A model generated the notes under the pieces. It saw only the letters and a list, made by a program, of their open reading frames with translations. It was not told where the DNA came from and ran no database searches. This document shows, piece after piece, positions 3,799-6,272 of a stretch of DNA of 53,477 nucleotides. The translations under genes were made by a program, and so were the position numbers. This stretch comes from Candidatus Woesearchaeota archaeon (lineage in GTDB: Archaea; Nanobdellota; Nanobdellia; Woesearchaeales; GW2011-AR4): NCBI GenBank assembly GCA_018303685.1, contig JAGVXS010000063.1:1-53477 (forward strand), in the 5' to 3' direction. How positions within the stretch are numbered: the first letter of the stretch is position 1; each line of letters opens with the position of its first letter.

Positions 3799-4872
3799 TC
3801 AGCGCTGAACCTTTATATATTCTTCCCCCCTTCTTGTTGTGTAGCTTTCAAAATAGCCTATTACAATCCTGTAGTATTCTTCCCCGCTTTTCAGCGGAGT
3901 AACTTTTTCCAGGATGCCTGCTGCAACTATGCTTTCTCCCTCAAATGCCTGCAGCATGAAATCCCTCGCGTATGTGACAACTTTCTTTACCTTGACATCA
4001 GGGCCTTGGACTACTTTTGCATTTTCCAATTCATAGTAGCCCGGACGCACAATACCGTTATAATCGTCCTTGACTTTTCCTTTTACAGTAGCCATCCCCA
4101 TTGGGGTGTATTTTTCATCCCCCCACTTGACGGATATTTCACCAGGATTCTCAACGCCGAAAACCGAAACAACTGTTTCTCCGAAATAGACGTCTATGAA
4201 CTTCCTCCTTGAATGCCAGATAAACTCATCCTCTGAAATGAACAATCCTGCATTGTAAGAGGCAAAGTATTTCTTCCACTCCTCAAGAGTTTTCCACCTT
4301 AGCCACGGGTGCTTTGCATTTTGTATGAAGCTTATGTATTTCCAGTAATTCTCTTTTCCAAAAACTATTATATCAATATCAGACCTTCCATAAGTATAAG
4401 TGCCCAATAATGTGGAGTTGGTTACTCCCAAGTCAGAGGCTTTCAAGCCGCTTTCCAAAACTAAGCTTAAAAATCCATGCGCCCTCTTCATGTAATCGTC
4501 CATTTCAGAGTCTTTCATCGCAAGGATTTTTTTAACGCCCTCTTTTGGGTTAGGCAGCCTGGCAATTTTGTTTTTAGGGACGCCCATAAACCATGTATGG
4601 TGCAGAGGGCTGTCATACATGTAGTCCGGGTACGCTTTTCTGAAGTCGTCTATGTACGATTTCAGCCTTTTCTCATCAACAGCCCAGTAATCAAACCTTC
4701 TGACATCATTCCCCTGGATATTCCTCTCCTGGAACCCTGTACAGTCTATCCTTTGCCTTGGGATGTATTTCGGCTTTGCTATTACAAAGCCGTCCGGGTG
4801 GTCATTTGCATAGCTCTTCAGCTGCAAGCCGTCGTCGCTCCACATTATCATGGACTCGTAAAAGTGCGTCAT
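3799..4872 (-). CDS. Predicted nucleotidyltransferase (COG1665-like)
   Basis: 357 aa; GTYTYGRSDIDIIVFG pol-beta-type GS/DxD motif. Confidence 0.7.
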   Translation of the reverse strand: MTHFYESMIMWSDDGLQLKSYANDHPDGFVIAKPKYIPRQRIDCTGFQERNIQGNDVRRFDYWAVDEKRLKSYIDDFRKAYPDYMYDSPLHHTWFMGVPKNKIARLPNPKEGVKKILAMKDSEMDDYMKRAHGFLSLVLESGLKASDLGVTNSTLLGTYTYGRSDIDIIVFGKENYWKYISFIQNAKHPWLRWKTLEEWKKYFASYNAGLFISEDEFIWHSRRKFIDVYFGETVVSVFGVENPGEISVKWGDEKYTPMGMATVKGKVKDDYNGIVRPGYYELENAKVVQGPDVKVKKVVTYARDFMLQAFEGESIVAAGILEKVTPLKSGEEYYRIVIGYFESYTTRRGEEYIKVQR

Positions 4873-6272
4873 TTTGCCTCCCGTGGATTTGCTACAAATT
4901 TGCTTTTGCCCATATATTCCAGAAACTCCCTTACATTGTGAATTTCAAGAAGGTTTGTCCTTTTTGACTTGCTGTGGAAGATGGACGCTATTATGGCTAT
5001 CTGATCCGTTTTTCCTATGAATCCCTTTTTTAGCGCCTTCATGATAACCTCCTTTTTGTCGTTGTTTGATATGTCGTCAGCGTCTATATCAACATGCAGC
5101 GGGCATATGCCCCATAACAGATGAAGCTGCCTGAAAATTTTCATTCTTGAGGTTGCCGCTATGGTTTTGCATTTCAGCCTTTTGCTTGATATCATTCTTG
5201 CAGAATACCCCCCTGATGTTATTATAAGCAAGGCATCTATGCGCAAAATCTTCTCCAGCTCTGAAACTGCATCGCCTATGAATCTCGTCAAGTCATGGCT
5301 TGCGCTCTTGGAAGCTTCTTCAACTGCAATCTCAGCATTCTTTATAATTCTGGAAAGTGTTTCGACTGATTTGAGCGGAAATTTCCCAGTTGAGGTTTCA
5401 TCTGACAGCATTATGCAGGAGGCACCTTCAAGAACGGCATTTGAAATGTCATATACCTCCGGCTGCATCAATGGTTTCCCTGAAATCGAGGAGTTAAGAA
5501 TGTTGCCCGCTATTATGGACGGCTTTCCGTGCCTGCTGCACTCGCCAATGATTTCTTTCTGGAATTTCGGGAGGGCTTCAATGCCAGCGCCTGCAAACCT
5601 GCTTCTGTCAACAACGACTCCATAAGCCTCTTCAATTATTTCCTTGCAGTTTTTCAGTGATTTCCTGTCGATTTTCGCTATTACTTTGATTTTGTTCCCT
5701 ATGACCTGCTTTATATTACTATAGCCAAGAAGCTTGCTGGCTTGCCGTATGTCTTCCGCGCTATTCGCCGGCACTATGACAAAATCCAGGTCATTTTTTA
5801 CGGCAAACTTAATCCAGCTTCTGCCCGGCTTTGCACTGATGTCAAGCAATATCGGGATGTCGCCTGACGCCTTCCTGACATTCTGGATTATATTTGCCAC
5901 TGCTTTGTCATTCAGGCTGGAGGCATCAATTCGAGCGGCGTCCATTCCCATATCCGCCAATTTTTTGATTATGACTGCATTGTCAGAAGCCTGCCCTATT
6001 GTGCACATGACTTTGGTTTTCTTTTTTCTTTTTTTGTTTTCTTTCTCTTCAATTGCTTCATAGAATTCTTTAGCCCTGCCGGATTCATTCACCTCATAGA
6101 AGAGCGCGTTATTCTTACGGTTTGCAATAACATTGCCGGATTTCTCCAAACTCTTTAATACCTTGAATGCACTTCCCACGCTTATGCCGAGCATTCTGGC
6201 TATCTGGTTGATGTTGTAGCCATTTCCATGATTCTTATATAAAAACTCGAAGATTTTTGCCCTGTTGTTCAT
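4869..6272 (-). CDS. Winged-HTH fused to pyruvate-kinase-like A and C domains; predicted transcription regulator
   Basis: N-term wHTH (MNNRAKIFEFLYKNHGNGYNINQIARMLGISVGSAFKVLKSLEKSGNV) followed by PK-like KVMCTIGQASDNAVIIKKLADMGMDAARID, DISNAVLEGASCIMLSDETSTGKFPLKSV, TSGGYSARMIS, LLEIHNV. Start moved from 6350 (GTG upstream of TATA) to ATG 6272. Confidence 0.8.
   Translation of the reverse strand: MNNRAKIFEFLYKNHGNGYNINQIARMLGISVGSAFKVLKSLEKSGNVIANRKNNALFYEVNESGRAKEFYEAIEEKENKKRKKKTKVMCTIGQASDNAVIIKKLADMGMDAARIDASSLNDKAVANIIQNVRKASGDIPILLDISAKPGRSWIKFAVKNDLDFVIVPANSAEDIRQASKLLGYSNIKQVIGNKIKVIAKIDRKSLKNCKEIIEEAYGVVVDRSRFAGAGIEALPKFQKEIIGECSRHGKPSIIAGNILNSSISGKPLMQPEVYDISNAVLEGASCIMLSDETSTGKFPLKSVETLSRIIKNAEIAVEEASKSASHDLTRFIGDAVSELEKILRIDALLIITSGGYSARMISSKRLKCKTIAATSRMKIFRQLHLLWGICPLHVDIDADDISNNDKKEVIMKALKKGFIGKTDQIAIIASIFHSKSKRTNLLEIHNVREFLEYMGKSKFVANPREAK

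Follow-up and report, generated by a model that had tools for sequence, protein, structure and literature searches.

Pyruvate kinase (PK) is a textbook allosteric enzyme. That enzymes can give rise to regulators is already known, and for one of these, GfcR of haloarchaea, the gene name points to a phosphoribosyltransferase. Encoded by pyrE1, GfcR is a transcriptional activator of sugar degradation genes (PMC11519228) and so, like the putative regulators considered here, an archaeal metabolic regulator from a gene carrying an enzyme name. Closer in design is BzdR, an HTH joined to a degenerate shikimate kinase (PMC3602430): like the protein described below (P0001) it has an N-terminal HTH and a catalysis-dead, kinase-derived effector domain, and it controls an operon, but its kinase fold is a different one, it is bacterial and its ligand, benzoyl-CoA, is known. 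With PK itself (PF00224 + PF02887; e.g., PykF, PKM and the G. stearothermophilus enzyme) P0001 shares the A barrel, the C domain, the effector loop and the whole-chain fold, while differing in the addition of a winged helix-turn-helix (wHTH), the absence of the B domain, and the loss of the metal-ligand Asp, the phosphate-site Thr and other residues. Its direct relatives, 35–49% identical, are full-length wHTH-PKs of DPANN archaea (P0045–P0054, annotated ‘pyruvate kinase’), whose wHTH and C-domain loops are as in the proteins without a B domain (‘B-less’). In the open-access literature searched, no paper characterising full-length wHTH-PKs, or any wHTH-PK, and no PK-derived regulator was found. 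A further point of comparison is provided by PK-ATP sulfurylase(-APS kinase) fusions, common in DPANN and CPR genomes (homologues P0197–P0316). As in the operons of the full-length wHTH-PKs, a PK barrel is here tied to sulfate activation; unlike wHTH-PKs the fusions have neither wHTH nor PK C domain, and catalytic residues are present in the G043 example.

How does the present locus compare? The window (the whole stretch of 53,477 nucleotides analysed, from a Candidatus Woesearchaeota archaeon) contains a minus-strand gene with its ATG at 6272 and its stop ending at 4869, exactly the extent given in the earlier note. Its parts are:

4869..6272, minus strand: gene for the B-less wHTH-PK-like candidate regulator P0001, 467 aa (translation, Pfam, family of 43, model)
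6078..6272, minus strand: wHTH, aa 1–65, with helices 3–13 and 21–28, recognition helix 32–44 and wing 48–61 (model; HTH_24, HTH_11)
5832..6020, minus strand: first part of the PK barrel, aa 85–147 (Pfam, model)
5817..5840, minus strand: junction at the missing B domain, aa 145–152 (alignment, model)
5334..5816, minus strand: second part of the PK barrel, aa 153–313, with degenerate active site (Pfam, alignment)
4908..5285, minus strand: PK C (effector) domain, aa 330–455, the best-conserved part of the B-less family (PK_C)
5196..5219, minus strand: effector phosphate loop TSGGYSAR, aa 352–359 (98% mean conservation in B-less proteins)

The homology to PK A and C domains that had earlier been read by eye is present in both sequence and fold. 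Pfam matches the barrel as two segments (E 5.7e-34) and PK_C at 9.8e-19, and a Foldseek search with the AlphaFold model (mean pLDDT 83.8) returns PK folds over the whole chain (E 1.4e-29), several of the top chains being of about 400 residues, i.e., below full PK length. Against the NCBIfam PK equivalog TIGR01064 the protein scores 205.2 bits, under the cut-off of 306.4. In the model the wHTH is followed by a linker helix (65–80) and, from residue 87, by the barrel, in which strand 141–144 leads almost directly to helix 151–159 at the usual position of the PK B domain. The N-terminal wHTH, also proposed earlier, is seen in the model and agrees with matches to several Pfam wHTH models at aa 4–60, all of them sub-threshold (HTH_11 at 8.4e-5); HTH_24 matches 33 of the 43 B-less members. 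An assignment to TrmB or a MarR-type family is not made, no wHTH model exceeding its curated cut-off in P0001 and the C-terminal part being PK. A DNA-binding domain fused to an enzyme-derived domain is the mark of an enzyme-derived one-component regulator, and P0001 has that arrangement.

The protein search yielded 43 B-less proteins (P0001 and P0002–P0044, minus the fragment P0009), the relatives being 49–71% identical to P0001, together with nine full-length wHTH-PKs of 558–571 aa. R120 and the entire B-domain block are gaps in 43/43 B-less proteins of the alignment, and the genome to which the window belongs has no PK-barrel match besides P0001 and thus no sign of a B domain elsewhere; the earlier note was right that the domain is missing. 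It was right also about the metal-ligand Asp, which is retained by 9/9 full-length wHTH-PKs and by 0/43 of the B-less ones. When the nine canonical catalytic positions are taken together, 81 of 81 residues are kept among the full-length proteins and 98 of 387 among the B-less ones, where Thr survives in 7/43, Glu in 12/43 and Lys in 24/43. With such residues the B-less protein is rejected as the cell's PK. Could a frameshift have joined two genes, a possibility that had been named as a potential refutation? It is ruled out by 43 proteins having the same layout in one frame and by a dN/dS of 0.20.

Where did the B-less form come from? Unlike it, the full-length wHTH-PKs have a B domain and a complete set of catalytic residues, are followed by ATP sulfurylase, and carry Lys where K+-dependent PKs have Glu117, the signature of K+-independent PKs (PMC8835810). 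In a tree built from alignment columns of the barrel and the C domain, all B-less proteins group in a single clade (100/99) that lies within the full-length wHTH-PKs, and conventional PKs, same-genus ones included, branch separately (100/100). A clade of all full-length wHTH-PKs is rejected (p 0.03), and with this nesting the B domain was most simply lost once; the B-less clade thus most simply has a single origin inside a catalytic lineage that keeps the domain. Within the order wHTH-PKs occur in 9 of 362 genomes, a count that leaves out two conventional PKs, and a scan of IMG/VR for further relatives found none. The genomes G000, G009 and G010 have no PK apart from the degenerate one, and in one B-less genome a conventional PK stands alongside; enolase and a PEP synthase/PPDK-type protein are encoded by the window's own genome and likewise by G000, G009 and G010.

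The loss of the B domain was accompanied by a reversal of constraint. The barrel is the best-conserved part of the full-length wHTH-PKs and the worst in the B-less ones: among B-less pairs the barrel is surpassed in conservation by the C domain in 99% of cases and by the wHTH in 95%, vs 6% and 14% among full-length pairs, and though such pair counts are non-independent, the sequences being phylogenetically correlated, the reversal is large and persists at matched overall identity. Versus the nearest relative, 87% identical, dN/dS is 0.10 for the wHTH, 0.14 for the C domain and 0.21 for the barrel. The most invariant stretches of the B-less proteins are the wHTH and the elements that in PKs line the effector site. 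The loop, TSGGY[ST]AR, is invariant but for S/T at one position, and K406 (which aligns with PKM R489), S430, H433, K437 and N440 are each present in 43/43. The pocket is identified by alignment rather than from a ligand structure, and on that footing the B-less proteins appear to have lost the catalytic site and retained the ligand pocket. That the TSGGYSAR loop is there, and near-invariant, agrees with the earlier note; as a special feature it does not stand, such a loop being ordinary in PK C domains and inherited, and its survival is of note only in that the active site did not survive with it.

If the protein binds DNA, where might it do so? Upstream of the gene are:

6276..6287, minus strand: candidate operator repeat 2, TTATTCACTTTT (promoter comparison)
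6297..6308, minus strand: candidate operator repeat 1, TTATTCACTTTT, 21 bp from repeat 2 (promoter comparison)
6315..6322, minus strand: TATA box TTTATAAA, whose spacing to repeat 1 is fixed in relatives
6324..6329, minus strand: BRE-like AGAAAC adjoining the TATA box, conserved in the promoter alignment, its role being putative
6343..6354, plus strand: half-site in inverted orientation (gene strand: GTGAATA), lying 43 bp upstream of repeat 1 (promoter comparison)

The two TTATTCACTTTT repeats lie between TATA and ATG, with the inverted TGAAT upstream of TATA. Nine wHTH-PK upstream regions from different genomes share this block, TGAAT-(27–31 bp)-TATA and then two ATTCA half-sites, the latter exactly 21 bp apart in 7/9; the two diverged promoters are those of L045, with a spacing of 20, and L046, with a TGAATGATCATTCA palindrome. 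In eight the inverted TGAAT is 43–45 bp upstream of the first half-site. For the full-length wHTH-PKs the repeats are shared in three loci and found in diverged form in two more; at L091 the downstream repeats are not recognisable. The tandem repeat stands at the wHTH-PK promoter in 6/6 genomes searched. In those six there are seven occurrences of ATTCACT-N6..16-ATTCACT, all but one at the wHTH-PK promoter with N14, and TATA-N6..13-TTATTCACTTT occurs once per genome, each time at that promoter, the chance expectation for one 200-bp promoter being ~3e-6. There is no sign of a wider regulon in the rest of the window, where the motif is about as frequent as chance would give (16 matches with up to 2 mismatches vs 15.7 expected). 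Four IMG/VR contigs contain the tandem repeat. As a phylogenetic footprint, a conserved candidate operator is thus present at the putative target promoter. With distances of 21 and ~43 bp the half-sites are set roughly two and four turns of the helix apart, and transcription is expected to start within the stretch covered by the repeats, features that would favour repression by an oligomer. A looser tandem half-site gave 22 further matches away from wHTH-PK promoters in 198 relatives, at least two of them preceding a different wHTH gene, so the motif is no proof of binding by the wHTH-PK's own wHTH. In L086 and L087, near position 1500, TTATTCACTTWATGAATAAYRTTATTCACTT stands in the promoter of a wHTH-nucleotidyltransferase gene that has a small gene downstream; a related half-site may therefore serve more than one wHTH family.

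Downstream, the same gene run continues:

3799..4872, minus strand: next operon gene, with an ATGA overlap with the regulator gene; 357-aa family with a nucleotidyltransferase-like motif and a C-terminal OB-like part
2410..3789, minus strand: prolyl-tRNA synthetase-like gene (TIGR00408, 440.8 bits, cut-off 437)
1532..2492, minus strand: PHP-domain phosphatase, nucleoside-bisphosphate phosphatase-like, frameshifted in the assembly and 5 nt shorter than the intact L040 gene

Downstream sequence is available for five full-length loci (L042, L043, L045, L046 and L091), and in each of them ATP sulfurylase directly follows the wHTH-PK; APS kinase usually comes next, and some of the loci also have a PHP phosphatase similar to 3′,5′-nucleoside bisphosphate phosphatase. 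At B-less loci the regulator gene abuts or overlaps, in the place of ATP sulfurylase, the gene of the ~357-aa family. This archaeal family has 93 relatives, and the window's member is modelled confidently (pLDDT 92.9), though a structure search with it gave no clear PDB relative, only weak OB-fold matches. L039 and L041 have two copies of its gene; the prolyl-tRNA synthetase gene is inside the regulator's run in the window and L040 and absent from the run in L039 and L041. ATP sulfurylase is absent from the four B-less genomes, and APS kinase is in the cluster of two of them and absent from the other two. Clusters with APS kinase and without ATP sulfurylase encode a ~210-aa protein with Cys-x2-Cys and His motifs (L039:13522-14154, L041:8965-9594), which could be an alternative APS supplier.

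We consider it likely, with a probability of about 0.7, that P0001 is a PK-derived transcriptional autoregulator of a former sulfate-activation operon, probably a repressor. A dead catalytic site, a kept regulatory pocket and a conserved promoter element together suggest that it probably switches an operon rather than making pyruvate. Beside the computed architecture, catalytic-site loss, ancestry, constraint shift and promoter footprint, we infer DNA binding by the wHTH, repression, an oligomer and a ligand. The starting point would be an ancestral DPANN protein in which a wHTH was joined to a complete PK of the K+-independent type, ahead of the ATP sulfurylase and APS kinase genes. As PK activity would regenerate the ATP used by sulfate activation, that ancestor may be seen as both one of the operon's enzymes and its regulator. 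In one lineage ATP sulfurylase would have gone from the operon, the B domain been deleted and the catalytic residues decayed: catalysis was perhaps no longer needed once ATP sulfurylase was lost, and regulation alone stayed. The barrel would persist as a scaffold that probably supports oligomers of the PK type, and constraint on the wHTH and on the effector pocket of the C domain would have become stronger. Such an oligomer could bring several of its wHTHs to bear on three half-sites that share roughly one face of the DNA (the inverted TGAATAA upstream of TATA and, spanning the start site, the direct TTATTCACTTTT repeats with their 21-bp spacing), and when bound would block TBP/TFB/RNAP at its own promoter, repressing its own operon. 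FBP, F26BP or AMP rock PK oligomers, and a phosphorylated metabolite in the C-domain pocket may rock this one and alter wHTH spacing; AMP, a sugar phosphate or a nucleotide of sulfate activation, PAP for instance, are candidate ligands.

A fuller form of the proposal, which we hold tentatively and at somewhat less than even odds, is a stepwise conversion of which both forms are alive: a catalytic wHTH-PK ‘trigger enzyme’ regulating a PAPS-synthesis operon, and a B-less descendant that is a pure sensor, a PK-type oligomer that detects an effector through the former allosteric site and grips three half-sites around TATA. If true, PK allostery has been rewired from catalysis to DNA binding. The earlier note had proposed a metabolite-sensing repressor. 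Conversion of a PK into a DNA-binding regulator is well supported, by the wHTH, the dead site in a monophyletic clade, the constraint shift and the operator-like element; sensing is suggested by the near-complete conservation of the effector-pocket loops, and repression by the position of the repeats relative to TATA and ATG. The catalytic form that keeps its B domain, the candidate operator and the sulfate-activation context were not part of that note.

Must a ligand be involved at all? PKs from archaea have been reported to be unresponsive to classical effectors, which counts against effector sensing, and PK subunits contact each other through their C domains (PMC4448766), so that the C domain of a DNA-binding autoregulator might have been kept solely for oligomerisation through C-C contacts, with no small-molecule response; much conserved C-domain sequence does lie outside the pocket loops. 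A pure interface would, however, not be expected to favour pocket positions most, and the phosphate loop, K406, H433 and K437 are 98–100% conserved, matching effector-pocket elements, which makes this reading fairly unlikely. Alternatively the protein might be an activator, or its wHTH might act at the RNA or protein level, as wHTHs are able to bind either, the promoter repeats being bound by another regulator; the half-site before the wHTH-nucleotidyltransferase gene of some relatives would fit. We regard that as decidedly unlikely, given that the exact spacing is kept at B-less and full-length wHTH-PK promoters alike, the proteins of the two groups being ~45–50% identical, that the repeats between TATA and ATG favour repression, and that ATTCAT replaces ATTCAC in the clade whose recognition helix has His rather than Phe at position 36.

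B-less PEP-binding barrels are known as enzymes (HpcH/HpaI), and a few polar barrel residues of the family are invariant (K196, E232, E272), but that the protein is an enzyme with a new, aldolase- or lyase-like activity is very improbable: among the folded parts of the family the barrel is conserved least, and the metal-ligand and phosphate-site residues no longer make up a complete set. Loss of catalytic residues is also what a decaying PK pseudogene would show; there is hardly any chance of this, with 43 intact proteins, the low dN/dS (lowest in the wHTH), strong C-domain conservation and a kept promoter. What seems of most value is that catalytic and non-catalytic forms sharing a promoter design both survive. 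The PK allosteric domain appears to have outlived the active site and to control a promoter, and with the catalytic intermediate surviving in relatives the conversion of enzyme to regulator can be tested stepwise.

Some of the B-less proteins are automatically annotated ‘pyruvate kinase’, which credits their organisms with a glycolytic ATP step that is seemingly absent. That PK and ATP sulfurylase are linked in DPANN and CPR genomes alike points to a coupling, so far unstudied, of PEP to sulfate activation. In one genome of the order a PK barrel lacking the C domain, ATP sulfurylase and APS kinase form a single 913-aa protein (L048:5110-7851, minus strand), a type of fusion that suggests PEP-driven ATP regeneration in PAPS synthesis. 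Elsewhere in the window, at 10126-12114, a membrane protein gene that is intact in L040 (697 aa) is split into several ORFs, by decay or by assembly error.
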